Below, one piece after another: positions 24,094 to 39,651 of a stretch of 64,000 nucleotides of DNA. The translations under genes were made by a program, and so were the position numbers. Where the stretch lies: positions 1 through 64,000 of IMG/VR virus record IMGVR_UViG_3300031787_005083. One strand, given 5' to 3'. This DNA comes from a virus. Numbering within the stretch: position 1 is the first letter of the stretch; each line of letters opens with the position of its first letter. Below the pieces are notes generated by a model. That model was not told where the DNA came from, did not search any database, and saw only the letters and a list, made by a program, of their open reading frames with translations.

Positions 24094-25748
<1,655 letters not shown>

Positions 25749-26321
25749 TTAGGGTACCCAATTAAAGTTAATAACTAGTCTATGGTCGTGTGCAATTGGG
25801 CTTGTACTAGAGTGATAAGTTAAGCCGTCAAAAATAACTAATCTATCTGCCTTAGGTGATACTGTTTGATCAACAGTAAATTTTTTATTTTTGCTCCACT
25901 CGTAACTTGACACACTTAAACTTTGATCTCGTTTTTCTTTATAAAATATTGTATCACCGTCACTGTCGTTTACATAGTAAAGAGCTGTCATGTGGCCGTC
26001 GTCCCAATCTACATGAGGTTCATGAATAATTGGATATGGAGTTCTTGTAGTAAAGCCTGCTCTGATTCTAATTAATTTACTGAGCGACATTTGACTTTCG
26101 TACAGTGCCTTAATTAATATCGATTGTGCTAGAGACATTAACGGATTCATAATCTCATTATTATTGTACATCATCAGCACCCATGACGGGTCATAAGGTT
26201 GTATTCTGTTGTCAAATTGATTATATGCAGTATTTCTTAAATAGAACCAAGGTTGGTCAAGCATTAAATTTTCTAAATAGGATGCATTTGCTGGTGAAGT
26301 TACGTTGTCTATAACTTTCAT
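25749..26321 (-). CDS. 2OG-Fe(II) oxygenase-like protein, type A
   Basis: A 190-aa double-stranded beta-helix oxygenase. Iron ligands are H103-x-D105 (HVDWDDG) and H170 (LTYHSS); R181 is placed to bind 2-oxoglutarate. The signature LYYVNDSDGDTIF and the ending RLVINFNW are shared with the genes at 30359 and 33078, so the three are paralogues (type A). Such enzymes hydroxylate or otherwise oxidise proteins or small molecules using 2-oxoglutarate and oxygen. It is the only oxygenase on the minus strand. Its stop abuts the GroEL stop, AAAGGA precedes the ATG, and a TATAAATA box lies 40 bases upstream. The substrate is not evident. Confidence 0.88.
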   Translation of the reverse strand: MKVIDNVTSPANASYLENLMLDQPWFYLRNTAYNQFDNRIQPYDPSWVLMMYNNNEIMNPLMSLAQSILIKALYESQMSLSKLIRIRAGFTTRTPYPIIHEPHVDWDDGHMTALYYVNDSDGDTIFYKEKRDQSLSVSSYEWSKNKKFTVDQTVSPKADRLVIFDGLTYHSSTSPIAHDHRLVINFNWVP

Positions 26322-26347
26322 ATCGTGTCCTTTACGTCAAACAAGCT

Positions 26348-26355
26348 GGTAAATA
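26348..26355 (+). promoter_or_regulatory. Late box for the plus-strand halogenase operon
   Basis: GGTAAATA, first base exactly 13 bases before the ATG at 26361. There is no ribosome binding site between. It overlaps the opposing minus-strand box by two bases. Confidence 0.55.
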
Positions 26356-26361
26356 TTTATA
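26354..26361 (-). promoter_or_regulatory. Late box for the minus-strand oxygenase
   Basis: TATAAATA on the minus strand, identical to the T4 late consensus. The predicted leader is about 27 bases and contains AAAGGA. It overlaps the first base of the plus-strand ATG at 26361. Confidence 0.65.
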
Positions 26362-27110
26362 TGATATTCAATAGCCCCGAAATAAAAATTAAATTTAAAA
26401 CTTTTGATCCATTTGTTTTAAAAAATCTAGCACCACTATCTGCTCAAAAAAAATATCCTTCATGGTTTAAAGATACACCACCATTTAGCGGCGGTGGCGC
26501 CATATCAACAAACTTTGAGCCTATTCTAGCTCCAACTATTCGACGATGTCCAGCAATAAATGATTATTTTTCAACTGGTGTAACTATACCTAACTGGACC
26601 GATTTAGAATTTTTTATTGACGGACCTAAAAAGTCAATGGAATGGCGTTACTCAAATAATTACACTTCTATGGAATTAGTACAGCCGCACGATTCTAGTC
26701 AGTTTCCGCAATTAGCAAACAAGTACCTTCATGCAAAAATTGTAAGTCCGTGGATAGCTGAATGTAATTCTGACATAAAATGGTTTTTAACTAAGCCTAG
26801 TTATTTTTCTGAGTTTGATGATCAGGATGTGTTGTTCTGTGACGGAGTTGTTCAATTTTACAACAACTTTGTAACTAATGTAAACTTATTTTTTCCTATT
26901 AGAGATCAATCCTATACTGTGAAATTTTCAGCAGGTGAGCCTTTTCAGAAGTATATTCCGCTTACAGAAAAGACGGTAAATATTACTACTGAATATTGTA
27001 CCCAAGAGTATTATGACCTCGCAGCACTAAAAGGAAGAAAAATTTCCTACCATCTGGGAAAACTATACAATATTTTTAAAAGAAATAACCGCAAGGAGAG
27101 AGAAAAATGA
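26361..27110 (+). CDS. Unknown protein opening the halogenase operon (249 aa)
   Basis: I use the ATG at 26361 (MIFNSPEIK), 13 bases after a late box, rather than 26325, which lies upstream of that box. The protein is soluble and Trp/Phe/Pro-rich. It has KYPSWFKDTPPF, IRRCPAINDYFSTGVTIPNW, a WRYSNN stretch, and near the C-terminus AGEPFQKYIPL. The last phrase recalls uncharacterised DUF6065-type proteins, but I hold this lightly. The C-terminus is basic. It is first in the operon and its stop overlaps the next ATG (ATGA), so a role linked with the halogenases and oxygenases is likely by position only. Confidence 0.75.
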   Translation: MIFNSPEIKIKFKTFDPFVLKNLAPLSAQKKYPSWFKDTPPFSGGGAISTNFEPILAPTIRRCPAINDYFSTGVTIPNWTDLEFFIDGPKKSMEWRYSNNYTSMELVQPHDSSQFPQLANKYLHAKIVSPWIAECNSDIKWFLTKPSYFSEFDDQDVLFCDGVVQFYNNFVTNVNLFFPIRDQSYTVKFSAGEPFQKYIPLTEKTVNITTEYCTQEYYDLAALKGRKISYHLGKLYNIFKRNNRKEREK

Positions 27111-27478
27111 GTACCACAAGAATAGTCAACGGCGTAGAATACACAATACCGCCAGGAACAGAACATATATGGACTGTGCCAGAAGAAGTAGTAGTAACTG
27201 CTCCTAGAGATGAAGTAACTGTAATTGATGCAATCAACGGTCTAAGAGTGCAGGCTATAGTTCGAAATCAAAATGAAGCAAGAATACTTGCGTTAACAGA
27301 TCAATTAGCTAGTATTTGGCAAAACTTTGTAGACACTACAATTACCAAAGCTGAATTAACAACACAGGTTGGTAATTTTAGAAACACTGAACTAGAAAAT
27401 ACAGAAGGTGTTGATAATATAACTGTTCAATTTTTTGAAACAGTAATTCTTAAAATGTTAAGCGAAAGCAATCCATGA
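27107..27478 (+). CDS. Small unknown protein coupled to halogenase 1 (123 aa)
   Basis: An acidic protein with AAGGAG 8 bases before its ATG, the best ribosome binding site in the operon. It overlaps both neighbours by four bases (ATGA each time), so it is translated with halogenase 1. The N-terminus (RIVNGVEYTIPPGTEHIWTV, then EEVVVTAPRDE) looks beta-like, and the rest is helical (LTDQLASIWQNFVDTTI). Two Trp lie in exposed-looking segments. I recognise no family. It might be a partner, carrier or substrate of the halogenase; the evidence is only coupling and size. Confidence 0.75.
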   Translation: MSTTRIVNGVEYTIPPGTEHIWTVPEEVVVTAPRDEVTVIDAINGLRVQAIVRNQNEARILALTDQLASIWQNFVDTTITKAELTTQVGNFRNTELENTEGVDNITVQFFETVILKMLSESNP

Positions 27479-29073
27479 TAAAGCCAGTTAAAAAAATTAT
27501 AATAGTAGGCGGCGGCAGCGCAGGTTGGATGAGTGCCGCTGCATTAATAAAAGCATATCCTGAAAAAGAGATTGTTGTAATTGAAAGTCCAAATGTTCCA
27601 ATCGTAGGCGTAGGAGAAAGCACACTTGGCGGAATTAATGACTATTGTAAATTTTTAGAAATTGACGAAAAAGATTTCATGACATTTACTGATGCAAGTT
27701 ATAAAATGAGCATCAAGTTTACTGACTTTTACGAAAAAGATGCAGGTGGATTTCATTATCCGTTTGGAAGACCATTAACACAAGGTACTATTAACGGAAT
27801 GAATGATTGGCTCGTTAAAAAAGCACTATATCCAGATACTCCAATCGGTGATTATGTAAACTGCTTTTTTCCGGCCGCTGCTCTATGGGATCATAACAAG
27901 TTTGCGTTAAACAACTACGGACTTTTTGATAACTACGAACCAGACAATGATGTAGCATATCATTTTGATGCAACAAAATTTGGTGCTTGGCTTAGAGAAA
28001 GATATTGCAAGCCTAGAGGTGTAAAACACATACCTACTACTGTAATAGATATTAAAGTAAACGAAAATGGTGTAGAAAAACTTGTACTTGAGTCAGGCGA
28101 TGAAATTTCTGCTGATTTATATGTTGACTGTACTGGCTTCAAAAGTATTCTGTTAGCAGGCGCTCTAAAAGAAGAGTTTGTATCATATAGTAATATGTTG
28201 CCAAACAATAAAGCTATAGCAACTCGAATTCCATATAAAGATAAAGAAAAAGAATTAGAACCATTTACTAATAGTACAGCTATTGGCAATGGATGGGTAT
28301 GGAATATTCCTAGTTGGGAACGCTTAGGTACAGGATATGTATATAGTGATAAATTTATTACTCCAAAAGATGCTAGAGAAGAATTTAAACAACATCTAAT
28401 GAGCGATAAAATGGTAGTGCCTAGAACTAGAGAAGAAGTTGATGCTCTCGAGTTTAACGATATTAGTATGCGTGTTGGAATTCACAAAAGAACTTTTGTA
28501 AAAAATGTTGTTGCTATTGGATTATCTGCAGGATTTATTGAACCACTAGAATCAAATGGCTTGTATACTGTACACGAGTTTTTATTTAAATTAATTAAAA
28601 CACTTGAGCGTCCAGCAATTACCCAATGGGATAAAGATGTATACAATGCAGCAACATTTGGTATGTGGAGAAATTTTGCACAATTTGTTGCAATGCACTA
28701 CGCATTAAGTATCAGGGACGATACAGAATATTGGAAGGCTAATGCTAATCGAGTTTATTCTCCAGGCATGCCGTCATTAGAGCCAGAAACTGCTATAGGA
28801 TTTTATAAACTTCAAGGCGCAAAAATGTTTGAGTACGGTCATGATTCAGACATAGCAGGAATTAATTGGATTAGTGTAGGAATGAATTATTTTGTTTCTG
28901 ATAAGACAACTGTAACTCTTAGACAAAATTTAAGAAGAGAAAATTTTAGAATTACTTACGACCCTATTTTTAGAATGTGGGAAGAAAGAAAAGCTCGCTG
29001 GAATGAAAGTGCAAAAAATTACGGAAGTCTTTATCAATATTTAAAAGACAACATTCATAAAGGACAAGAATAA
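27475..29073 (+). CDS. Flavin-dependent tryptophan-type halogenase 1
   Basis: A 532-aa member of the family of PrnA, RebH and the cyanophage enzyme VirX1. These use FADH2, oxygen and a halide to halogenate an aromatic or other substrate through a lysine-bound hypohalous species. The FAD loop GGGSAG is at 12-17. The lysine corresponding to PrnA K79 is K77 (ASYKMSIKF). W274-x-W276-x-I-P279 is the halogenase signature that suppresses oxygenase activity. FIEPLES with E356 corresponds to the PrnA active-site glutamate. All key residues are intact, so it is probably active. Flavin reductase is not encoded here and may come from the host. It overlaps the upstream gene by four bases. The substrate is unknown. 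Confidence 0.95.
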   Translation: MIKPVKKIIIVGGGSAGWMSAAALIKAYPEKEIVVIESPNVPIVGVGESTLGGINDYCKFLEIDEKDFMTFTDASYKMSIKFTDFYEKDAGGFHYPFGRPLTQGTINGMNDWLVKKALYPDTPIGDYVNCFFPAAALWDHNKFALNNYGLFDNYEPDNDVAYHFDATKFGAWLRERYCKPRGVKHIPTTVIDIKVNENGVEKLVLESGDEISADLYVDCTGFKSILLAGALKEEFVSYSNMLPNNKAIATRIPYKDKEKELEPFTNSTAIGNGWVWNIPSWERLGTGYVYSDKFITPKDAREEFKQHLMSDKMVVPRTREEVDALEFNDISMRVGIHKRTFVKNVVAIGLSAGFIEPLESNGLYTVHEFLFKLIKTLERPAITQWDKDVYNAATFGMWRNFAQFVAMHYALSIRDDTEYWKANANRVYSPGMPSLEPETAIGFYKLQGAKMFEYGHDSDIAGINWISVGMNYFVSDKTTVTLRQNLRRENFRITYDPIFRMWEERKARWNESAKNYGSLYQYLKDNIHKGQE

Positions 29074-29074
29074 T

Positions 29075-29707
29075 ATGTTGGTTAACAATATTTTTGCTGG
29101 AAGGCTTGAACCGTCAGCTACTGTAGGCGGGTGCATAGATATTTTTGAAAATGCTTGGCCTGAGCCAGAGTTAACTATTGCAAGGATTGAACAAGAGTGT
29201 TCAAATATTAATTCAGGTGTTGGTTGGAGTAGAGCAGGAACCGTAGGTCAAGGGCATCGACAACAAGCTCGTACTAATTTAGGGTTAGGTATTACCTTAG
29301 GCGGCGAATCTGTTGATAGTCAAACTATGAAAGACATACACAATCAAATGTATTTTCTTTTATTAGCATCTACAATTCCGTATACTGAACGATATGAAAT
29401 GAATGAATACTTGTATCATGAACCGTACCAAGCATTAAAATATAGAGACGGTGAAGAATATAAAGCACATTACGACGGTGGAACTCAATCAGGTAGATGT
29501 ATTAGTGCAGTCGTATATCTCAACGACGAATACGAAGGTGGACACATTGAGTTTCCTAATTTTAAAATTAAGATAAAACCTCAAAAAGGTATGTTGATTT
29601 TATTTCCATCTAATTTTGCGTATAAACATGTTGCACATCCTGTAACACAAGGAACAAAATATAGTCTAGTTACTTGGATTCACGATCGTCCAATTCAAGG
29701 AATGTAA
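29075..29707 (+). CDS. 2OG-Fe(II) oxygenase, prolyl-hydroxylase-like, type B
   Basis: A 210-aa protein. The C-terminal half has the prolyl 4-hydroxylase pattern: YKAHYDGG with H132-x-D134, VVYLND, EGGHIEFP, H185 followed by PV at 189-190, and K195 in TQGTKYSLVTW for 2-oxoglutarate. The N-terminal 110 residues begin with a short IFAGRLEPSA segment and are otherwise helical. It starts one base after halogenase 1, with AAAGGA upstream, and is followed closely by another oxygenase. The nearest relative in the window is the protein at 30919. Family members hydroxylate Pro or Lys in proteins, but the substrate is not visible. Confidence 0.93.
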   Translation: MLVNNIFAGRLEPSATVGGCIDIFENAWPEPELTIARIEQECSNINSGVGWSRAGTVGQGHRQQARTNLGLGITLGGESVDSQTMKDIHNQMYFLLLASTIPYTERYEMNEYLYHEPYQALKYRDGEEYKAHYDGGTQSGRCISAVVYLNDEYEGGHIEFPNFKIKIKPQKGMLILFPSNFAYKHVAHPVTQGTKYSLVTWIHDRPIQGM

Positions 29708-29709
29708 CA

Positions 29710-30357
29710 ATGACTAATGCGGATCTTTTTCAAAAAAATAAGTATGTGCAAGTTAATAATGTATTGTCGCCCGAGCTGATCAATATAGCAACTACCTATG
29801 CGTTATTAGATGAAAGAAATGATCTATCATTAGAGGAAGGCGACTCTCCACAAATTCATAATTCGCATAGCAAGTATGCTGATACGTTAATAGAAGCTTT
29901 TTTATTGTATCTGCATCCTATGATGGAAGAAAATACAGGTCTTAAGTTACATCCAACCTATTCGTATTATAGAGTTTACAAACCTGGCGCTGATTTAGTA
30001 AAACACATCGATCGTCCTAGTTGCGAAATTTCTACTACAGTTACCTTAGGTTTTGATTATAAGGGTGCTGATTACGAATGGCCTATATTTGTTGGCGATG
30101 CTAGATGTGCTATGCAGCCAGGTGATCTTGTAATTTATAGAGGCTGTGAAGTAGAACATTGGCGCGAAGTATTTGATGCTCCGACTAATTCGTTTCATGT
30201 GCAATTTTTCTGTCATTATGTTGATGCTAACGGACCGTATGCAGATTTTAAGTTTGATAAAAGACCGTTTATTGGATATGATAAAGAAGGTAAATTAAAC
30301 AAAACTGTTTCCAAACATTATTTTCCAAACAAAAAATATTTGACATTTACAGGATAG
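29710..30357 (+). CDS. 2OG-Fe(II) oxygenase-like protein, type C
   Basis: A 215-aa protein starting at the ATG at 29710, two bases after the previous stop and with AAGGA 8 bases upstream. A start at 29674 would lie within the previous gene. Iron ligands are H99-x-D101 (VKHIDRPS) and H150 (VEHWRE). YYRVYKPG and QPGDLVIYRG are the strands that usually frame the site. The expected 2-oxoglutarate-binding basic residue is less clear; SFHVQFFCHYVD occupies its place. It differs from types A and B, so it adds a third subfamily to the cluster. It probably acts as a hydroxylase; the substrate is unknown. Confidence 0.87.
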   Translation: MTNADLFQKNKYVQVNNVLSPELINIATTYALLDERNDLSLEEGDSPQIHNSHSKYADTLIEAFLLYLHPMMEENTGLKLHPTYSYYRVYKPGADLVKHIDRPSCEISTTVTLGFDYKGADYEWPIFVGDARCAMQPGDLVIYRGCEVEHWREVFDAPTNSFHVQFFCHYVDANGPYADFKFDKRPFIGYDKEGKLNKTVSKHYFPNKKYLTFTG

Positions 30358-30358
30358 T

Positions 30359-30922
30359 ATGATAGAAGTATTTGATAATATTCTATCCGCCGAAGAGTGT
30401 GATCACATAGAGCAGTTTTTAAGAGATCCAAAATTTCCTTGGTTTTTATCTATAGGACACAATCATTGTACAACAGATTTTGATAATATTAAAAAAAATT
30501 CAAACTCTTGGTCTGGTGAAGCACTGTTACTTACACATGTATTTTATCTTGATAAATTAAAAAATTCTGATAATTATCTATTGTCAGATTTTATATTAAA
30601 TAGATTCTTAGATCGTTCTAAAATTCAATTTACAGAACTATTTAGATCTAAAGCAAATCTACAACCAGCATCGCATAATGCTAATCAAATATATACAACT
30701 CCACACATTGATGGTAATAGTGACCATAAAGTCCTAATATATTATGCCAACAACTGCGACGGAGATACGTTTATTTTTAATGATCATGCTACAGGATCTA
30801 TACTAAAACAAGTTACTCCTAAAAAGGGAAGATTTTTATTATTTGATGGAAATCTATATCACGCTGCTGGCTTTCCAAGCGAATCAAATTTTAGACTTAA
30901 TGTAAATTTTAATTTAATATGA
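30359..30922 (+). CDS. 2OG-Fe(II) oxygenase-like protein, type A
   Basis: A 187-aa paralogue of the proteins at 25749 and 33078. Ligands are H116-x-D118 (TPHIDGNSDH), H168 (LYHAAG) and R179 near the end (FRLNVNFN). The family phrase LIYYANNCDGDTFIFN is conserved. It starts one base after the previous stop and overlaps the next ATG (ATGA). All residues needed for iron and 2-oxoglutarate are present. Sequence divergence from the other two type A copies suggests separate substrates or sites rather than recent duplication. Confidence 0.9.
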   Translation: MIEVFDNILSAEECDHIEQFLRDPKFPWFLSIGHNHCTTDFDNIKKNSNSWSGEALLLTHVFYLDKLKNSDNYLLSDFILNRFLDRSKIQFTELFRSKANLQPASHNANQIYTTPHIDGNSDHKVLIYYANNCDGDTFIFNDHATGSILKQVTPKKGRFLLFDGNLYHAAGFPSESNFRLNVNFNLI

Positions 30923-31509
30923 TACACGGTAAAATAGAAGATTTTATTGGCATTTACGAAAATGCTGTTAGTGCAGAACATTGCAATGCTATGATCAACT
31001 ACTTTGAAAGTCTTAGAGACTATAATCTTGTTATTGATCAAGATCAATATACTACACAAGCTACTGTAAGAAAAGACGAATCAGTATTTTTATGCCACCC
31101 TGATGTAATAACATTGCCTAAAGGTTCACCTATTATTTTTCCGTTTGCAGACGCATTATGGAAATGCTACGAAGATTATACTAAAGAGTTTGAAATGCTA
31201 AGAACTGCTGCCAAACACGGTTTTTATATGTTGCGTATACAGCGAACTGATAAAGGCGGAGGCTTTCATAATTGGCATTTTGAAAATACTGGAAATGAAA
31301 CATCAAATAGATTAGTCACATTTATGATGTATCTTAACGATGTAGAAGAAGGAGGTGAAACAGAATTCCTTTATCTCCATAAAAGAATAAAACCTAAAGC
31401 AGGTACTATGCTAATATGGCCGTCTACCTATACACACACGCATCGAGGAAATCCTCCGCTAAGTGGAACAAAGTATATTATAACAGGATGGTTAACATAC
31501 TTTGAATAA
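30919..31509 (+). CDS. 2OG-Fe(II) oxygenase, prolyl-hydroxylase-like, with HxE ligand
   Basis: A 196-aa type B relative. The iron site reads H120-x-E122 (HNWHFENTG), with Glu in place of the usual Asp. The third His is H173 or H175 (THTHRGNPP) and K185 in SGTKYIITGW binds 2-oxoglutarate. MMYLNDVEEGGETEF and IKPKAGTMLIWPS match the prolyl-hydroxylase strands. I associate the WHxE variant with a subgroup of phage and bacterial relatives, so it may be active. It is coupled by a four-base overlap to the gene before it; halogenase 2 begins six bases after its stop. Confidence 0.9.
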   Translation: MIHGKIEDFIGIYENAVSAEHCNAMINYFESLRDYNLVIDQDQYTTQATVRKDESVFLCHPDVITLPKGSPIIFPFADALWKCYEDYTKEFEMLRTAAKHGFYMLRIQRTDKGGGFHNWHFENTGNETSNRLVTFMMYLNDVEEGGETEFLYLHKRIKPKAGTMLIWPSTYTHTHRGNPPLSGTKYIITGWLTYFE

Positions 31510-31515
31510 GTTAAT

Positions 31516-33078
31516 ATGATTCATATAGATAAAAATTTTAAATTTGTAATTGTAGGCGGAGGTAGTGCTGGATGGATTTCTGCACTATTTGTTCGTGCAA
31601 ACTTTCCTGATAGTCAGATCACTGTTATACAAAGTAGCGAAATAGGAATACTTGGAGCAGGTGAAGGTACTACTCCTCATATTATAGATTTTTTAGATGA
31701 AATTGATGTTCCTGTAAGCAGACTAATCAAGGATGCAAAAGCAGTTTTAAAAAGCGGTATTAAATTTTCTAATTGGAACGGTGATAGAAAATACTACTAC
31801 CATTCGTTTATGGATAACCCAGAGTTGGATCATACTATATTCAGCGAATTAAAGCACACAAAGTTACCATTATTAGATCTCGAAGTGATTGCTAACGGAG
31901 GATCATTAGATGACATAGGTTTTAATTCAGCAGCGTCTGATAGAAATTGTGTGAGATTTATTCCTAATCCATCTGCTACTAACAAAGATTTAGATCCTAT
32001 ACTACACTTTACTAGATTAGGAAGAACTGCGCTTCATTTTGATGCTAACTTACTAGCATCGTGTCTTGAAAATATAGGCAGGTCAAGAGGCATTAATGTC
32101 ATAGACGGCATTGTTACAAACTTTACTACTACAGACAGTGGACATATTACATCAGTTAATATTGATTCAAAAAAGATTGAATGCGATTTTGTGTTTGATT
32201 GTTCGGGCTTTAAGAGATTAGCCATTGGTAATTTGTATAAAACGCCATGGAAAAGTTACAAAGAGTATTTGCCTGCAAAGCGAGCAATGCCATTCTTTAT
32301 TCCAAATAACTCACAAATAATTCCTCCTTACACAGATTCAACCGCTATGAAATGGGGATGGATGTGGAAAATTCCAGTTCAAGGCAGATTTGGTTGCGGA
32401 TATGTTTATGATAGCGATAGAGTTTCTGATGAAGATGCCAAAGCAGAACTAGATCAAGAAATAGGTATTGAGGTTGAAGTGCCTAGGATATTAAACTTTG
32501 AACCAGGTAGATTTGAAAAAATATATGAAAAGAATTGTTTAGCTATTGGACTAAGTTCGGGCTTTATAGAACCGTTAGAGGCTACCTCTATATGGACGTC
32601 ATTGATGATGCTGAATGCATGGATAGAAAATCCGGCGGCCATAACACATAACGATCAGACTGCTAGAGATAAAGTTAATCAACGGCATTGTGACATGAAC
32701 GATAACACTCTAGGATTTGTTTATTTTCATTATATCACAAAAAGGGATGACACTACGTTTTGGAGTAATTTCACTAAAGACAATAAGATTCCAGCATCGT
32801 TGCATAAGTTATTAGAAGAATCAAAACACACAATACCTAGTTATGATATGTTTTCTAACATAGGTCTAGACTGGGCTGCAAAGAGCTTTTTAGCATGCGG
32901 TAATGGACAAAAGTTTTTTAATCCTGATCATGCTAAAAAAATATTTGATGCTTACTATAATGGTAAAAGAAAAGACGATTATGATCTATTAAAGTATCAG
33001 TACTTTAGAAATATTAATTTAAATTTAACAACATTAATAGATCACTATTCTTTTATAGAATATATGAGAAATAATTAA
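31516..33078 (+). CDS. Flavin-dependent tryptophan-type halogenase 2
   Basis: A 520-aa protein. The FAD loop GGGSAG is at 14-19, the catalytic lysine is K79 (LKSGIKFSNW), the signature W282-x-W284-x-I-P287 is intact, and FIEPLEA with E352 matches the glutamate position. RGCGYVYDS-like sequence follows the WxWxIP motif, as in the third halogenase, whereas halogenase 1 has GTGYVYSD. Halogenases 2 and 3 are therefore closer to each other than to halogenase 1. It overlaps the next oxygenase ATG by one base (TAATG). Activity is likely; substrate and halide preference cannot be read. VirX1 from a cyanophage is known to prefer iodide. Confidence 0.95.
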   Translation: MIHIDKNFKFVIVGGGSAGWISALFVRANFPDSQITVIQSSEIGILGAGEGTTPHIIDFLDEIDVPVSRLIKDAKAVLKSGIKFSNWNGDRKYYYHSFMDNPELDHTIFSELKHTKLPLLDLEVIANGGSLDDIGFNSAASDRNCVRFIPNPSATNKDLDPILHFTRLGRTALHFDANLLASCLENIGRSRGINVIDGIVTNFTTTDSGHITSVNIDSKKIECDFVFDCSGFKRLAIGNLYKTPWKSYKEYLPAKRAMPFFIPNNSQIIPPYTDSTAMKWGWMWKIPVQGRFGCGYVYDSDRVSDEDAKAELDQEIGIEVEVPRILNFEPGRFEKIYEKNCLAIGLSSGFIEPLEATSIWTSLMMLNAWIENPAAITHNDQTARDKVNQRHCDMNDNTLGFVYFHYITKRDDTTFWSNFTKDNKIPASLHKLLEESKHTIPSYDMFSNIGLDWAAKSFLACGNGQKFFNPDHAKKIFDAYYNGKRKDDYDLLKYQYFRNINLNLTTLIDHYSFIEYMRNN

Positions 33079-33665
33079 TGATTGTAAATAACGTTCTTTC
33101 TACTAACGATTATAACAACTTATACAATCTAGTATCGGGCGTAAACTTCCCGTGGTATTATCAACCTGATATAGCATTTAGAGGGTTTGATGAGCCTGTG
33201 CAAGATCCACGTATGTTTCCTAGTCATGGTTTTACTCATGTAGTATGGGATTGTGATCAAGGAAAAGTATCAGATGTTTTGCAATTTGTAGCACCAATTA
33301 TTGAAAGTTTTCAAAAACAACTTGGTGTTAAAATTAATAATTTTTTAAGAATAAAAATAAATTTACAAACACCAATTATTGGATATACTAACGATCACTA
33401 TAATGGCCCGCATATTGATAGATTTGATCCGCACAAAACACTCATCTATTATCTTAATGACAGTGACGGTGATACTTTCATTTTTAATAAAGAATACAAT
33501 CCTAACGATAAATCAACTTGGCATCCAGTTAGTCCGGATATTAAAGAAAGAGTTACTCCAATTGCAAATTCTTTATATTTTTTAGAAAACGGATTCACTT
33601 ATCATTCAGGAAGCAATCCAGTTAATAGTCCAAGAAGAATCACAATTAATATCAATTACAACTAA
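33078..33665 (+). CDS. 2OG-Fe(II) oxygenase-like protein, type A
   Basis: A 195-aa paralogue of 25749 and 30359. Ligands are H112-x-D114 (GPHIDRFDPHK), H176 (FTYHSG) and R187 (PRRITININ). The family phrase LIYYLNDSDGDTFIFN is intact. It is joined to halogenase 2 by a one-base stop/start overlap and to the next gene in the same way. The direct coupling of a type A oxygenase to a halogenase suggests that the two act in one pathway or on one substrate; this is inference. Confidence 0.92.
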   Translation: MIVNNVLSTNDYNNLYNLVSGVNFPWYYQPDIAFRGFDEPVQDPRMFPSHGFTHVVWDCDQGKVSDVLQFVAPIIESFQKQLGVKINNFLRIKINLQTPIIGYTNDHYNGPHIDRFDPHKTLIYYLNDSDGDTFIFNKEYNPNDKSTWHPVSPDIKERVTPIANSLYFLENGFTYHSGSNPVNSPRRITININYN

Positions 33666-34255
33666 TGGCAAATTTAATAATAGATAGATGGTTTTCAAAT
33701 CCGGTATGGGAAACTGATCTAAATTTAAACAATGACGAACTTATAGCATATGCTTACGAGCTAAAATCAAAGAAAGACGGAATACATAAATCTAATAGAG
33801 AAGGGTGGCAATGTTCTGATATTGAAAATCCACCTAACTCTTATTTAAATTTAATAGAATCAATAAACAACACGCTGGTCGATGTGCATCGATCAATGGG
33901 ATTAAAAATAGAATATCCATCATATGTTAAAGGCAGTTGGATTAATATTAATCCATATGGCAGTTACAATCTTAGACACCTGCATCCAAGAAGTTTATTC
34001 AGTGGAGTATATTATCCTAAAGTTCCAGAAGGCGAATGTGGTGATTTAATTTTTTATAGAGATCATGTAATGCTCAGTTACTTACCAAATCATATTGTAG
34101 AAAATTGGAATGATATGACTAGTGGAACAACTGTATATAAAGCAAGGACAGGAATGCTTTTAATTTTTCCTAGTTGGTTAGAACATTCTGTTACTACTAA
34201 CCTTACTAGTGAAGATAGGATTTCAATAAGTTTTAATACTAACTACGACTATTAA
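33665..34255 (+). CDS. Putative 2OG-Fe(II) oxygenase, Oxy_5-like
   Basis: A 196-aa protein resembling the 2OG-FeII_Oxy_5 group (TIGR02466-like). It has the motif N-x2-H105-x-H107-P followed by SLFSGVYYPKVP, then GDLIFYRD, GMLLIFPSWLEH (H174) and RISISFN (R185). The group is common in marine phages and is annotated as oxygenase, but its chemistry is not established as far as I know. It is last in the plus-strand operon; its stop overlaps the convergent 134-aa gene by four bases. Confidence 0.85.
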   Translation: MANLIIDRWFSNPVWETDLNLNNDELIAYAYELKSKKDGIHKSNREGWQCSDIENPPNSYLNLIESINNTLVDVHRSMGLKIEYPSYVKGSWININPYGSYNLRHLHPRSLFSGVYYPKVPEGECGDLIFYRDHVMLSYLPNHIVENWNDMTSGTTVYKARTGMLLIFPSWLEHSVTTNLTSEDRISISFNTNYDY

Positions 34256-34656
34256 ATAGACGTTTTTCCTCTAGTCAGCACACCGTAGTTTTTATCGTTA
34301 AATTTGTCCATAAATCTAAAGTGTGCATCTTTAGAATATGGAATTTTTAATTCGTCTATTCTTTCTAATACTTGAGGTTGTACGAATCTTCCATAGAACG
34401 CTTCTAGATCTTCACCCCAGTTATGTCGTATGATATAATATTCTGCATAAGGGCACCAAGCTGCATATACTGCTGTGCCGCCGCCTCGTTCTATGATAAC
34501 TTCCCATATTTCAACATCTTCGATTTCCATAATCCTGTCGTAGCTCCAATCAGGACTAGGTGGTAAAACTATTTTATCTGAGTCCATGTTATTATCATTC
34601 CACACTTCGTCATTAAAATCTTCAAAAATATTCTTAGTTGTCTTAAACTGAGGCAT
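34252..34656 (-). CDS. Unknown acidic protein (134 aa)
   Basis: An acidic soluble protein with WSYDRIMEIEDVEIWEVIIE, the beta-like stretch TAVYAAWCPYAEYYIIRHNW and a C-terminal LTRGKTSI. I recognise no family. It overlaps the 69-aa gene upstream by 14 bases, and the pair follows halogenase 3 on the minus strand. It is convergent with the plus-strand operon. Confidence 0.7.
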   Translation of the reverse strand: MPQFKTTKNIFEDFNDEVWNDNNMDSDKIVLPPSPDWSYDRIMEIEDVEIWEVIIERGGGTAVYAAWCPYAEYYIIRHNWGEDLEAFYGRFVQPQVLERIDELKIPYSKDAHFRFMDKFNDKNYGVLTRGKTSI

Positions 34657-34852
34657 TATCTGTTAGATCCTTTATCGATAAATTAAGTTTTTTCCAGCTA
34701 TGTTTTCCTTCGGTAGCATGCCCAGTATAAAGTTCTCCAGTTTCTTGATCAATTAAGATCCATTTCTCTGGACACTTAGTTACTACTGTAAGTGTTATTG
34801 CAGATTCTAATTCTGCAACTTTTTTACTGTTTTTTAATTTTCTTACCTTCAT
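34643..34852 (-). CDS. Small unknown protein downstream of halogenase 3 (69 aa)
   Basis: A basic small protein. The segment KWILIDQETGELYTGHATEGKHSW-type (about residues 30-53) suggests a short beta sheet. I do not recognise it. It starts nine bases after the halogenase 3 stop and overlaps the 134-aa gene, so the three minus-strand genes form one unit. Confidence 0.6.
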   Translation of the reverse strand: MKVRKLKNSKKVAELESAITLTVVTKCPEKWILIDQETGELYTGHATEGKHSWKKLNLSIKDLTDNASV

Positions 34853-34861
34853 TACAGATAC

Positions 34862-36289
34862 CTATTGATAATTTGTAGTAATATGTTTTAGAAAGTCTGT
34901 TTCAGCAATGTGATACATGTTAGATTCTATTAGATCTTTGTGCGCCGATTCAGGATTAAGTAAGTCAAGTCCTGCCATACTCCAATTCCATAAGCCAATT
35001 GCAGGTGCACCAAAATTATTAGCTATTTCAAAATAACTTACTAACTTATTTTTTGATCGAGTAATAATATTATCAGCGAACGGACTAACAATATTGTTTT
35101 CTTTTATATGGCGCCAGAATGGAGTATCTGCTCTAGTGCCTTGGTAGTGCATAGAAACAAAGTCTAGATTAAGATCATAAAAATGTGCAGTTCGCGTGTT
35201 ATATGAATCTTGATTTTCTATTAGGTTTGTAGTTTTAAGATCACTTGATAAGAAGTCATTAATAAACAATAGTAGTTGAGCAATAGTAGTATGGATACTT
35301 GTAGCTTGTAGCGGTTCAACAAAACAACTTGCTAGTCCTAAGGACAATACATTTTTTTCCCAGAACTTTTCTGATCTGCCTGGGTCAAAATTTATTATCT
35401 TAATAGGAGTAATTTCTCTTCCAAGTAACTGCTCCACTTCAAGTTTAGCATCTTCTGCTGATATAAAATTATTGTTGTAAACATAACCGCATCCTCGTCG
35501 AGTTTGTAAAGGTATGTCCCACATCCAACCAGATGACAGTGCCGTAGCATCAGTCCAAGGTTTTATTTTATCATTTTGAGTATAGTCTAAAAGAAATGGC
35601 ATTGCAGTATTGCAGGGCAAATACTTACTGTAGGACTTCCATCCTACATTTAATTTTTTCATTAGAATTTTATTAAAGCCGCTGCAATCAATAAAAAATT
35701 CTGATTCAATTTTTCTACCATCATCTAGAACTACTGATTGTATATGTCCGTTTTGAGGATCAAGCACACAGTCTTTAACTATAGCGTCAATGTGTGTGAT
35801 GTTATCTTTTATGCAGCGTTCTTTAAAAAACTTTCCAACTTTGTGTGCATTAAAATGAAACGCATTAAACACATTGTAGTTTCTTTCTACTTCGTAGTCT
35901 AGACCTATTTTAGAAGCGATATGAGCTTTGTCTTTACCAAACTTGTGCAGTACATATTTAAACACATGATCATTCATTCTACCAGCTGAAGGACTGCCGT
36001 CTAGGGGTGTAAAAAATGAAGTATTATCACCTAACCAATTATTAAATTTAATACCAATTTTGTTAGTTGCATCACAGTAGTCTACAAACTCTTGTAGATT
36101 AATGTCAGTTTTGAAATATCTTCCAGCTAAGAGATCAGTGAAGAATCCTGTAGATCCTTCTCCGGCACCAATAATGCCAATTTCACTTGATTCAATTACT
36201 GTAATTTTGTGTATGTTTGGCTGCGACTTACTTATACAATAAGCCGCTAGCCAACCGGCTGTGCCGCCGCCAACGATTGTTATATTCAT
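34862..36289 (-). CDS. Flavin-dependent tryptophan-type halogenase 3
   Basis: A 475-aa protein, the shortest of the three. The FAD loop GGGTAG is at 7-12, the catalytic lysine is K77 (NKIGIKFNNW), W255-x-W257-x-I-P260 is intact, and FVEPLQA with E325 takes the glutamate position. RRGCGYVYNN follows the signature, as in halogenase 2. It faces the plus-strand cluster from the other side, on the strand of the fibre genes and directly downstream of a Gly-rich fibre gene. It may thus be transcribed with fibres. There is no strong ribosome binding site before the ATG. Probably an active enzyme; substrate unknown. Confidence 0.95.
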   Translation of the reverse strand: MNITIVGGGTAGWLAAYCISKSQPNIHKITVIESSEIGIIGAGEGSTGFFTDLLAGRYFKTDINLQEFVDYCDATNKIGIKFNNWLGDNTSFFTPLDGSPSAGRMNDHVFKYVLHKFGKDKAHIASKIGLDYEVERNYNVFNAFHFNAHKVGKFFKERCIKDNITHIDAIVKDCVLDPQNGHIQSVVLDDGRKIESEFFIDCSGFNKILMKKLNVGWKSYSKYLPCNTAMPFLLDYTQNDKIKPWTDATALSSGWMWDIPLQTRRGCGYVYNNNFISAEDAKLEVEQLLGREITPIKIINFDPGRSEKFWEKNVLSLGLASCFVEPLQATSIHTTIAQLLLFINDFLSSDLKTTNLIENQDSYNTRTAHFYDLNLDFVSMHYQGTRADTPFWRHIKENNIVSPFADNIITRSKNKLVSYFEIANNFGAPAIGLWNWSMAGLDLLNPESAHKDLIESNMYHIAETDFLKHITTNYQ

Positions 36290-36307
36290 ACTTTAATTTA
36301 TGCTGCA

Positions 36308-36326
36308 TGTTAGATCAAATCTAACA
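36308..36326. repeat. Perfect 8-base inverted repeat between Gly-rich gene and halogenase 3
   Basis: TGTTAGAT, a three-base loop and its exact complement. Neither strand has a long T-run after it, so it is at best a weak terminator. It may be an mRNA processing or 3' end element between the fibre gene and halogenase 3. Confidence 0.5.
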
Positions 36327-36334
36327 AAAGTGAA

Positions 36335-37531
36335 TTAAGTATTTCTGTATCGAATTACAACGACTCCAGGGCCGCCGTCACCACTTTGTGTGTTACTCCA
36401 ATATCCGCCACCACCGCCTGCACCTGAATTTGTAGCGCCTGATTGTCCTGCAACTGAGCCTGTTCCGCCCTCACCTCCACCAAACGCATTTAAACTTCCA
36501 CCGTGAGCGCCTGCAAGTCCGTAATGACCGTAGTTACCTGGGGCGTGTGTACCTGCGCCACCACCGCCAGCATATCGAGTAAGAGTTCCTGTTACTTGAC
36601 TTGCTAGGCCAGCACCACCTGTGCCCATTTCGTTACCACTGCTTGTTGGTTTACCAGACGATCCAGCACCGCCTCCACCACCACCGCAGTGAATGGTAGT
36701 AGAACCTGCTGCCCAGCCAAAGCCGCCACCGTGAGCACCAAAGCCGCCAGGGTGACCTTGACCTGCTATACCGCTGCCATATCCATTGCCTTCCATGGAA
36801 ATATGATCGTTATTGTTTCCTGTAGGCGTACCTTGAAGTGTAGCATTTGGCATTCCTGCTAACCAAGGATGGTTAGTTCCTTGATTTCCGTGACCGCCGG
36901 GCGCTTGTGGCCACCAACCGCCCTCACCTCCTGCTCCTGGTGTGTGTCCGCCAGGGCCACCGCCACCACTACCACCGTTATTCAATCGTATTACTGAATG
37001 TCCAGAAGTATATGAACTACCTCTACCGCCGCCGATAGCATTGTACTGCTGAGGTATTCCTGCTCCTACTACACTAGAAGGATTTCCTGGGTTTTGATTG
37101 TTAGCATTATGCTGTGTTTCTCTTGAGCCGCCTGCGCCTACGTTAATGGTATAGTTGCCTGCGGGCAAACTGGCCTGCGATTCATATATCATTCCGCCTG
37201 CGCCACCACCACCACCAATTTGTGCACCACCACCACCACCGGCAACCATTAGTACTTCTACCTGTCCTGGATATGTCATAGTAAAGGTTGTAGATCCACT
37301 GGTAAATGTGTGTATTCTATATCCACCTGTGGTACTAAGTGTACCGCCAGAACCTAGTGCAGATCCTTCGAGGGTTACCCAAACAGTTCCGTTGTATACT
37401 TCATTTCTTGCGTTATCGGTATTGTATCGAATCATTCCAGCACTTGGAGTGACTGGACGTTGTGCAGTTGTTCCACTAGGAAGTTGAATAAATCCACTAT
37501 CGTTTACTGTTACATTTTTTAACGTTGCCAT
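36335..37531 (-). CDS. Gly-rich fibre or adhesin protein 1 (398 aa)
   Basis: The N-terminus (MATLKNVTVNDSGFIQLPSG, then RPVTPSAGMIRYNT) is a fibre-type attachment segment shared with the next two genes and the giant proteins. From about residue 90 the protein is dominated by Gly runs, often with Ala, His, Pro and Asn, ending GGPGVVVIRYRN. Such Gly-rich blocks recall the receptor-binding loops of T-even gp38 adhesins and polyglycine-helix folds, so receptor binding is likely but inferred. It is the last of three tandem paralogues. Confidence 0.85.
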   Translation of the reverse strand: MATLKNVTVNDSGFIQLPSGTTAQRPVTPSAGMIRYNTDNARNEVYNGTVWVTLEGSALGSGGTLSTTGGYRIHTFTSGSTTFTMTYPGQVEVLMVAGGGGGAQIGGGGGAGGMIYESQASLPAGNYTINVGAGGSRETQHNANNQNPGNPSSVVGAGIPQQYNAIGGGRGSSYTSGHSVIRLNNGGSGGGGPGGHTPGAGGEGGWWPQAPGGHGNQGTNHPWLAGMPNATLQGTPTGNNNDHISMEGNGYGSGIAGQGHPGGFGAHGGGFGWAAGSTTIHCGGGGGGAGSSGKPTSSGNEMGTGGAGLASQVTGTLTRYAGGGGAGTHAPGNYGHYGLAGAHGGSLNAFGGGEGGTGSVAGQSGATNSGAGGGGGYWSNTQSGDGGPGVVVIRYRNT

Positions 37532-37534
37532 TTA

Positions 37535-38623
37535 TTATATCCTATATTTCACAATAACCACACCCGGGCCGCCCAAGCCTGCTGGATTTTCGCCGCCTGG
37601 GTGAGCACCACCTCCACCTCCACCACCTCGGTTAGTTCCACCAGCTGTAGCTACTGCGCCGCCGTGTGTACCTGAATTTCCTGTGCCGTCGCCGGCACCA
37701 CCTGGATCTGGACTATGGCCGTAGGCAGGATTAACGTGTGTTCCGCCAGCACCGCCAGCTGCATAAATTACTGCTGAGCCGCCTATTGCATTTGTAATTC
37801 CCTGTCCGCCGTGACAGCGAACCCAATTAGAATATCTGCTTATTCCTCGTGATCCTGCGCCACCACCTGATCCTCCAGCATGTGTTGCTCCAGAACCTTG
37901 AGTACCCGGATTTGGATATCCTGGGCCAGTGCCGTGGTGACCGTATCCGCCTGGATGTCCTTGTCCTATTACGCCTGTACCGCCTGGATGTTCACCGGGA
38001 TAGCTGGTATATACTGTACCTGGAGTTCCGTTTCCGCCTGGACCGCCGCCACCTGAACCACCGCTCATTGCAGGAATTGTACTGCCTGCACTATATTGGC
38101 CACCTTTGCCGCCGCCCACTGCTTCGATGTTTGCATTTGGTCCAACAAAACTTGATGGACCGCCGGATGTTCCTTCATCTGAATAGTGATGGAATCCGCC
38201 TGCGCCACCGCCACCTCTATTAATTGTATAATTCTGTCCACCTATGACCGATACTGCTGATTCATAAACGTATCCGCCTGCACCGCCTCCGCCGCCGATT
38301 GGAGCGCCACCACCGCCACCACCTACTACCAATACTTCTGCTCTACCTGTATAAGGAGCACTAAAAGTACCACTGCTAGTAAATGTATGAATTCTATAGC
38401 CGCCTGCTGTTGTAATAGTACCGCCGGTTGCTATTGTGGTTCCTGAACCTGCACTTATTGACCCGTCTGCTGTTTTCCAAACTCCGTTAACATACTGTTC
38501 AACTTCGTTAGTAGTAGTGTTAAATCTAAAATCACCGTTGGTATTGGTTCTTGCAGCAGTATTACCTACGGCTGCTTGTATAAATCCAGTGTCGTTTACT
38601 GTTAAATTCTTTAGCGTTGCCAT
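37535..38623 (-). CDS. Gly-rich fibre or adhesin protein 2 (362 aa)
   Basis: Paralogue of its two neighbours: start MATLKNLTVNDTGFIQ, a short linker segment NTTTNEVEQYVNGVWK, then TFSAPYTGRAEVLVVGGGG leading into a Gly-rich body and the ending GGPGVVIVKYR. It differs mainly in the Gly-rich loops, as expected for adhesins under receptor-driven change. Three bases separate it from gene 1 and two from gene 3, so all are translated from one message. Confidence 0.85.
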   Translation of the reverse strand: MATLKNLTVNDTGFIQAAVGNTAARTNTNGDFRFNTTTNEVEQYVNGVWKTADGSISAGSGTTIATGGTITTAGGYRIHTFTSSGTFSAPYTGRAEVLVVGGGGGGAPIGGGGGAGGYVYESAVSVIGGQNYTINRGGGGAGGFHHYSDEGTSGGPSSFVGPNANIEAVGGGKGGQYSAGSTIPAMSGGSGGGGPGGNGTPGTVYTSYPGEHPGGTGVIGQGHPGGYGHHGTGPGYPNPGTQGSGATHAGGSGGGAGSRGISRYSNWVRCHGGQGITNAIGGSAVIYAAGGAGGTHVNPAYGHSPDPGGAGDGTGNSGTHGGAVATAGGTNRGGGGGGGAHPGGENPAGLGGPGVVIVKYRI

Positions 38624-38625
38624 TC

Positions 38626-39651
38626 TTAACCTCGATATCTTACAATAACCACGCCTGGACCACCTGGGCCGCCGCCTTGTGGTTCTGGTGAATATGGACC
38701 ACCACCACCACCACCACCTAAGTTAGTGCCGCCAGCTTGACCGTTTTGACCCGGAAGTGTATTTCCTAAACTGCCTCTACCTGCAAGAGTTGATACTCCG
38801 TGACCTGGGCTGTGATAGCCGCCGCCACCACCGCCTGCTCTCCAAACTACACCGCCGCCAATGTTTGATGCCATGCCTTCACCGCCACGACCTTGTTGAT
38901 TACGATTTGAGCGTCCGTAGCCCATTGAGCCTGCGCCACCGCCTCCACCACCACCATAGTGTGTACCTGTAGGAGTTCCGTTATAATGAGCACCTACGCC
39001 ACCTGGGTGTCCTTGTCCTGCTGTTCCAGCTGCTCCAGCATGTATAGTTTCTGGACCACCATTCCATCCTGGGCCACCACCACCTGATCCACCGCCACTA
39101 GTTGGTTGACTACCTGGGGGATAATGACATCCTCGGCCACCGCCTGTTGCTACAATTGATACTGGAGTACCGCCGCCAAATGTGCTAGGATTACCTGAAG
39201 TACCATCATTTGCACTATGACTTGAACAGCCATTGCCACCTGTTCCAACAACTGCGGGATACGCAGTTCCAGCAACTACAGGAACTCCGCTAACATAGAT
39301 ATAGCCGCCTGCGCCGCCTCCACCTGAAATACTGTGGCCTCCGCCACCGCCTGCAATTGTTAGTACTTCTACAACACCGTCTTTGGTTGGTGTAAATTGT
39401 TGTGTTCCAGAAGTAAATGTGTGAATTCTATATCCTGCTGCGGTAGTGATTGCTCCGCCTGTACTAGCATTACCTACTGTTGACTCTTCTACACGTACCC
39501 AAGCACTACCATTCCAATATTCATTAGATGCAATATCTGTATTGTATCTTATCATACCAACCGTTGGACTACCTGGTCGCTGTGCGTTTGTTCCGCTAGG
39601 AAGTCTGATAAACCCAGTATCGTTTACAGTAAGATTTTTTAATGTTGCCAT
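38626..39651 (-). CDS. Gly-rich fibre or adhesin protein 3 (341 aa)
   Basis: First of the three in transcription order. Start MATLKNLTVNDTGFIRLPSG with RPGSPTVGMIRYNTD, then a Gly-rich body and the ending GGPGVVIVRYRG. Its first residue codon overlaps the stop of the S74 chaperone gene by one base. The closeness of an S74 gene suggests that fibre trimerisation and the adhesins are linked. Confidence 0.85.
   Translation of the reverse strand: MATLKNLTVNDTGFIRLPSGTNAQRPGSPTVGMIRYNTDIASNEYWNGSAWVRVEESTVGNASTGGAITTAAGYRIHTFTSGTQQFTPTKDGVVEVLTIAGGGGGHSISGGGGAGGYIYVSGVPVVAGTAYPAVVGTGGNGCSSHSANDGTSGNPSTFGGGTPVSIVATGGGRGCHYPPGSQPTSGGGSGGGGPGWNGGPETIHAGAAGTAGQGHPGGVGAHYNGTPTGTHYGGGGGGGAGSMGYGRSNRNQQGRGGEGMASNIGGGVVWRAGGGGGGYHSPGHGVSTLAGRGSLGNTLPGQNGQAGGTNLGGGGGGGPYSPEPQGGGPGGPGVVIVRYRG

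Follow-up and report, generated by a model that had tools for sequence, protein, structure and literature searches.

Phage flavin halogenases and 2-oxoglutarate oxygenases inherited as a unit with glycine-rich fibre-type proteins

What does a phage do with three halogenases and seven oxygenases encoded side by side? This question is posed by a gene cluster in an IMG/VR virus record (IMGVR_UViG_3300031787_005083; 185,762 bases), of which positions 1 to 64,000 were analysed and are referred to here as the window. Within 10.5 kb of its structural gene block are three PF04820 halogenases (hal1 to hal3) and seven oxygenase-type proteins (ox1 to ox7), all found by translation and family searches, in agreement with an initial annotation that had counted the same genes in ~10.5 kb from the sequence alone. 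Chance clustering is ruled out, as a crude count gives an expected number of comparable 14-gene runs of ~1e-9 to 1e-11. The enzymes belong to a longer unit, spanning about 25749-39651, that also includes glycine-rich (Gly-rich) proteins, and it is the extent of this unit that is new here. The likeliest function, which we put forward tentatively, is that of an exchangeable cassette in which adhesin-like Gly-rich proteins are paired with their modifying enzymes.

The extent of the unit was determined from pairwise protein identities, compared gene by gene among nine related contigs with Mantel p values. The identities of hal1 co-vary with those of ox1 (r=0.86), the DUF6065-family protein (r=0.96), u123, ox2, ox3, ox4, hal2, ox6, ox7, the 134-aa protein and the Gly-rich proteins gly1 and gly2 (r=0.93 each, p=2e-4), with r values of 0.72-0.96 and p values from 0.009 to 0.0002 across these genes. 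The correlation with a third Gly-rich protein, gly3, is weaker (r=0.57, p=0.02), and that with ox5, which is absent or replaced in some contigs, is not significant (r=0.31). No co-variation with hal1 was found for the adjacent S74 fibre (-0.54) or for three other genes, namely those for the neck protein (tail-sheath stabiliser, TSS; 0.15), a 366-aa virion protein (-0.02) and GroEL (0.15). These three co-vary mutually (TSS versus the others, 0.91-0.94); GroEL, considered as a cassette member for its proximity and high identity, was rejected since it tracks the backbone in this test. Because the enzyme and Gly-rich genes co-vary and the backbone genes do not, we place the left break point between GroEL and ox1 and the right one between gly3 and the S74 fibre gene (Table 1).

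Table 1. Features of the cassette and its left neighbour (positions in the window)
Feature	Position	Strand	Description
Phage GroEL	24159-25748		Adjoins cassette; tracks backbone (r=0.91 with neck gene), not cassette
ox1	25749..26321	-	2-oxoglutarate (2OG)-Fe(II) oxygenase, phrog_274; HVD103...H170
T4-late-type TATAAATA box	26354..26361	-	Faces ox1 alone
DUF6065-family protein	26361..27110	+	Opens plus-strand run; predicted dUTPase-like beta fold
Small conserved protein	27107..27478	+	Stays upstream of hal1 in relatives
hal1	27475..29073	+	Predicted flavin-dependent halogenase, all-phage VirX1 clade; PF04820 E 3e-100
ox2	29075..29707	+	Prolyl-4-hydroxylase/PKHD-like 2OG oxygenase; HYD132...H185/188
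ox3	29710..30357 (alternative start 29674)	+	phrog_2954; prolyl-hydroxylase-like fold; invariant HxDR...HWR
ox4	30359..30922	+	2OG oxygenase, phrog_274
ox5	30919..31509	+	Prolyl-4-hydroxylase-like 2OG oxygenase; HFE120...H175
hal2	31516..33078	+	Predicted flavin-dependent halogenase, second phage clade; PF04820 E 2e-94
ox6	33078..33665	+	2OG oxygenase, phrog_274
ox7	33665..34255	+	PF13759/TIGR02466 oxygenase-type protein; HxH replaces HxD
Conserved 134-aa protein	34252..34656	-	Cassette member, r=0.86 with hal1
69-aa protein	34643..34852	-	C-terminal part of phrog_4098; close relatives without conserved copy
hal3	34862..36289	-	Predicted flavin-dependent halogenase, third clade; PF04820 E 4e-93
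gly1	36335..37531	-	Gly-rich (28% G) fibre-type protein, PF21722
gly2	37535..38623	-	Gly-rich fibre-type protein, PF21722
gly3	38626..39651	-	Gly-rich fibre-type protein, phrog_2295/PF21722; cassette edge

Two loci, L010 and L011, are identical in the neck-protein/TSS stretch and differ in the cassette (hal1 76%, gly2 51%), which together with the co-variation indicates that the cassette is exchanged between backbones, Gly-rich and enzyme genes moving together. Adhesin-type genes usually show the lowest conservation in a phage, whereas gly1 retains 84-86% identity between phages with 48-63% identity in their neck proteins. Synonymous sites are near saturation, so the synonymous rate (dS) alone cannot separate recent exchange from strong constraint; exchange is favoured because the cassette is decoupled from the backbone.

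As candidates for polyglycine-II adhesins of the S16 gp38 type, the Gly-rich proteins have 28-30% Gly and similarity to PF21722, with no PDB sequence match, and their genes, the only three PF21722 genes of the record, sit beside hal3 and downstream of the fibre genes. Hal3, which is found in only some relatives, lies directly downstream of them on the same strand and shares the direction of fibre transcription. Each Gly-rich protein has 8-10 Pro-Gly dipeptides, or 20-28 per 1000 residues versus 3.6 in the phage's own proteome (6-8-fold), as well as conserved GQGHPGG and WWPQ-type loops. When the N-terminal domain of the Gly-rich (fibre) proteins was used as a reciprocal anchor, 24 of the 50 loci whose anchor protein is Gly-rich had a halogenase within 10 kb, versus two of 26 whose anchor protein is non-Gly-rich or unresolved (raw p=3e-4). 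Three Gly-rich genes stand beside halogenase genes in other lineages as well (L329, L335, L342, L345, L354, and L364); in L342, L345, and L364 they are followed immediately by a halogenase and a DUF6065 gene, and in L354 one gene intervenes.

How widely the enzymes themselves are linked was assessed in 108 non-duplicate loci retrieved by their halogenase. An oxygenase lies within 6 kb in 83 of these and at least three oxygenases in 57; at least two halogenases occur in 39, and 37 have both at least two halogenases and at least three oxygenases. Oxygenases are denser near halogenases than far from them (odds ratio 4.6, p=2e-24). Since this set had been retrieved via halogenases, we also anchored separately on the neck gene; with copies from the window itself excluded, 50 loci measured 7 kb or more, and 15 of these have a halogenase, several directly after the neck gene. 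The co-occurrence in related phages that the initial annotation had proposed to look for is therefore strong, and the multi-halogenase loci, together with the neck-anchored ones, rule out an arrangement of single, scattered genes. Oxygenase number and order differ between phages. Each of three contigs (L035, L040, and L041) has five halogenases, as many oxygenases and two DUF6065 genes in ~13 kb, and a NolO-type carbamoyltransferase, a tail assembly chaperone and a methyltransferase recur beside halogenase clusters in other phages (L081:11052-12872, L035:16271-16831, L020:4513-6228).

The combination of several halogenases with several oxygenases is not unique to this phage, as it recurs in dozens of viral contigs and in sequenced cyanophages. 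In Syn9 the fibre genes are followed by a tandem pair of halogenases, a DUF6065-type gene and some nine oxygenases; S-RIM44 has the same arrangement just before its neck genes, and S-CREM1 has a collagen-like gene, a halogenase, a "triphosphate nucleotidohydrolase" and then nine oxygenases. The novelty that had been seen in a combined set, relative to single phage halogenases, thus does not hold. Like that of the window, these clusters place a halogenase, a DUF6065-type gene and several 2OG genes contiguously in a structural region, close to fibre or collagen-like genes; they hold one or two halogenases and runs of as many as ten oxygenases. They differ in having a T4-like cyanophage rather than a PA5oct-like jumbo backbone and no third halogenase on the fibre strand; no PF21722-type Gly-rich homolog was found for these phages. 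In DSL-LC01 two collagen genes are shortly ahead of the halogenase, and in HTVC008M the cluster genes are split into two groups. The full cluster was not seen in P-SSM2, CP21 or S-SCSM2R. Genes of the cluster have been discussed, as speculation, in relation to antibiotic protection, 2OG balance or repair (PMC3037559, PMC2984593, PMC10452541, PMC9964418); the cluster as a unit is undescribed in these four papers, a coverage outside which the Syn9 genome and VirX1 papers fall.

The phage itself is not a cyanophage, judging from its terminase, which is closest to those of PA5oct-like jumbo myoviruses of Pseudomonas (55%), followed by Sinorhizobium phage Phosso and Agrobacterium phage Atu_ph07. 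Its sheath and neck genes are of the T4 type, though distant, and a near-identity DNA search among phage records gave no match.

All three halogenases have full-length PF04820 matches (313-337 bits; cut-off 21) and are 31-35% identical to one another; no others were found in the whole record. The GxGxxG motif, both Trp of WxWxIP, the catalytic Lys79 and the Glu of EPL(E/Q) are present in each, and the Lys, both Trp and the Glu are invariant in an eight-sequence alignment, bearing out the initial annotation, which had described these residues as intact. By family and catalytic residues these are tryptophan-type flavin halogenases, with halogenating activity predicted. Rough dN/dS (nonsynonymous to synonymous rate) estimates, for which synonymous sites are near saturation, are ~0.06 for hal1, 0.03-0.06 for hal2 and 0.07 for hal3, indicating strong purifying selection. 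In a tree of 251 sequences, built by a quick method and with long branches, phage and bacterial halogenases are nearly separate (five label changes versus 84 in shuffles), and recent capture from a host is therefore unsupported. Hal1 falls in an all-phage clade of 59 that includes the Syn9 and S-RIM44 enzymes, and hal2 and hal3 in two further, mainly phage clades. The closest solved relative of hal1 is the cyanophage enzyme VirX1 (PDB 6QGM; 338 bits, full length), which has the same catalytic residues and whose clade hal1 shares with the Syn9 homolog; the difference from VirX1 is that hal1 is one of three halogenases, the other two belonging to separate clades.

Six of the seven oxygenases match 2OG-Fe(II) models in Pfam, three of them slightly under the Pfam cut-off and with matches to PHROG 2OG families at <=1e-32, and the HxD/E...H metal triad is present in all of ox1 to ox6. 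Ox3 has no Pfam match; the HxDR...HWR motif is invariant in its family, and its AlphaFold model (mean predicted local distance difference test score, pLDDT, of 89) is a double-stranded beta-helix that matches the Pseudomonas putida prolyl 4-hydroxylase (P4H) and human PHD2. The PDB matches of ox2 and ox5 are collagen-type prolyl 4-hydroxylases, and all three thus resemble prolyl hydroxylases, ox2 and ox5 in sequence and ox3 in its predicted fold. The nearest solved proteins (3ITQ/5HV0, 5C5T; P. putida P4H 4J25/4IW3) act on proteins, and the identity of ox2, ox3, and ox5 to them is low. Ox7 has HxH instead of the expected HxD/E, as do all 48 homologs in which the motif was located, and HxH is therefore a PF13759 family trait. 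The oxygenases fall into at least four subfamilies (phrog_274 three times, PF13640/P4H-like twice, phrog_2954 and TIGR02466/PF13759), the minimum that the initial annotation had given. The PHROG labels "ferrochelatase" for ox3 and "DNA endonuclease V" for ox1, ox4, and ox6 are unsupported by Pfam, motifs or fold; in PHROGs v4 the labels of phrog_274, phrog_2954, phrog_2297, and phrog_3531 are apparently wrong, these families being of 2OG-oxygenase type. A profile search of the rest of the record found two more oxygenases, both at 140-151 kb. At ~144276-145307 (L129:4276-5307) is a 343-aa 2OG oxygenase with a cold-shock-domain-like N-terminus (GIVTWFNDAKGFGFV).

On which molecules might these enzymes act? 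The initial annotation had proposed virion or host-surface molecules; of the two, virion molecules are the better supported in view of the co-variation between the enzymes and the Gly-rich fibre-type proteins, and the host surface is retained as the main rival. The 2OG oxygenases would act on the Gly-rich proteins, hydroxylating Pro-Gly among other residues, and the halogenases would halogenate exposed Trp, Tyr or His of these same proteins, either ahead of tail assembly or in the course of it. Halogenation would consume O2, halide and FADH2, the FADH2 coming from a host reductase, which would be required as the record has no PF01613 flavin reductase gene. Together, hydroxylation and halogenation would tune or protect the receptor-binding surface. 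Hal1 and hal2 have weak matches, far below curated cut-offs and much poorer than those to PF04820, to QhpG and LodB, members of the same flavoprotein superfamily that modify Trp residues within proteins; this likeness provides superfamily precedent for a protein substrate. Gene content, intact catalytic residues, strong purifying selection, conserved linkage and enzyme/Gly-rich co-variation are observed, and from these we infer every enzyme-to-product step, as well as the substrate, the timing, the role of the Gly-rich proteins as virion adhesins and any benefit.

Several points weigh against modification of the Gly-rich proteins. The characterised flavin halogenases of this family use small aromatics. 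The Mantel set is small (nine contigs), and the reciprocal-anchor contrast falls to 12/30 versus 2/16 (p=0.09) when duplicates are collapsed and the window's lineage is removed. Within loci of 10-20 kb the Gly-rich genes are no nearer to the clusters than expected by chance (permutation p=0.24), and a PHROG scan showed no enrichment of annotated tail fibres in the immediate flanks versus genes further out, so that fibre adjacency at the scale of single genes is not significant. In addition, the halogenases of P-SSM2, CP21, and S-SCSM2R have no evident adjacent fibre gene in the stretch examined. In this lineage the association of the enzymes with Gly-rich proteins is well supported at the module scale; for other lineages it is suggestive.

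Co-inheritance with adhesin-type proteins would fit equally well if the enzymes acted on the receptor. They would then modify an outer-membrane protein, lipid or glycan of the host surface, e.g., as a block to superinfection or re-adsorption, and the cassette would pair them with an adhesin for that surface. Consistent with this, carbamoyltransferase, GT9-like and methyltransferase genes adjoin the cluster in relatives, some cyanophage clusters (S-SSM7) include carbamoyltransferases, a heptose kinase and sugar enzymes, and bacterial relatives adjoin TonB-dependent outer-membrane receptors at 49 of 80 loci. However, the window's own cluster lies in the structural block and has no sugar or lipid genes, and three of its oxygenases are protein-hydroxylase-like; we consider this explanation unlikely. 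The bacterial BrvH-type arrays of Proteobacteria resemble the window in that tandem PF04820 genes adjoin a surface-protein gene, and differ in forming a separate clade, in the presence of SapC and Cupin_8, in having phage-type 2OG oxygenases at only six of 80 loci and in lacking DUF6065. Such arrays (L141-L215) have two to five halogenases beside the TonB-dependent receptor genes.

The small aromatics halogenated by characterised family members, VirX1 included, are also what a small-molecule pathway would lead one to expect, one yielding a halogenated, hydroxylated metabolite (e.g., a modified indole) that acts on the host or competitors. For phage PrnA, roles of an antibiotic type have been proposed (PMC2984593, PMC9964418). 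The "pathway" of the initial annotation is nevertheless unsupported in the sense of sequential biosynthesis, since neither a scaffold enzyme nor a carrier protein or transporter could be identified among the cluster genes; moreover, the variation in oxygenase number and order argues against a metabolite, which would also leave the co-variation with Gly-rich proteins unexplained, and we regard this possibility as improbable. Quite improbable, too, is that the oxygenases act on host proteins such as EF-Tu, or deplete 2OG, and so alter host regulation. The best fold match of ox3 is the P. putida P4H crystallised with EF-Tu, and 2OG modulation has been proposed for cyanophages (PMC3037559), but the halogenases, their number and the link to fibre-type genes would be unexplained, and distinct subfamilies under strong selection argue for distinct substrates. 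It is scarcely probable at all that the oxygenases, together with the dUTPase-like DUF6065 protein, take part in modifying or repairing DNA or nucleotides: ox2 and ox3 have weak Tet-like similarity and a repair role for cyanophage 2OG genes is among the suggestions cited in PMC3037559, yet ox2, ox3, and ox5 match prolyl hydroxylases better, and in the cluster, which lies among structural genes, neither base-modification nor hydroxymethylase genes were seen.

For modification of the Gly-rich proteins, the importance would be that phages vary their host-recognition proteins through chemistry besides sequence. It is possible, if doubtful, that many phages have horizontally exchanged fibre-tailoring cassettes of this kind, whose halogenated and hydroxylated adhesins, with a receptor-binding surface matured post-translationally and diversified chemically, would be new for viruses. 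Studies of phage halogenases have treated them as biocatalysts, no natural substrate being known, and cyanophage 2OG oxygenase clusters have so far been ascribed to metabolism or repair. The co-inheritance of the Gly-rich proteins with the enzymes provides concrete candidate substrates and makes a long-standing question testable.

The DUF6065 protein is a regular companion of phage halogenases. It has a predicted dUTPase-like beta fold, with 2ZDC as best PDB match (E=2e-4, partial coverage) and a profile match to viral dUTPase (E=0.002), and the S-CREM1 gene at the equivalent position was annotated independently as a triphosphate nucleotidohydrolase.

Ox1, which is divergent, and hal3 are on the minus strand, apart from a plus-strand run of ten genes. 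The junctions of this run are -4, -4, +1, +2, +1, -4, +6, -1, and -1; the coupling by overlaps of one to four bases that had been described therefore applies to about half of them, the others having gaps of 1-6 nt. The late box that had been thought to head the whole cluster would serve only ox1: the TATAAATA box is on the minus strand and directed toward ox1, which rules it out as promoter of the plus-strand run, and no late-type box of comparable quality faces that run. A late-type signal is plausible for ox1, as ATAAATA boxes are common upstream of the record's open reading frames, 27 of 37 having a start on their own strand no more than 120 nt downstream. Across the whole record, ATAAATA/TAAATA boxes (e.g., 18629+, 12647-, 9305-, and 6202-) are concentrated ahead of open reading frames, and several are 10-14 nt from a start codon, which would give very short leaders or none. 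The fibre region also encodes a protein of 2256 aa (40862-47632) with three CBM5/12 carbohydrate-binding modules.

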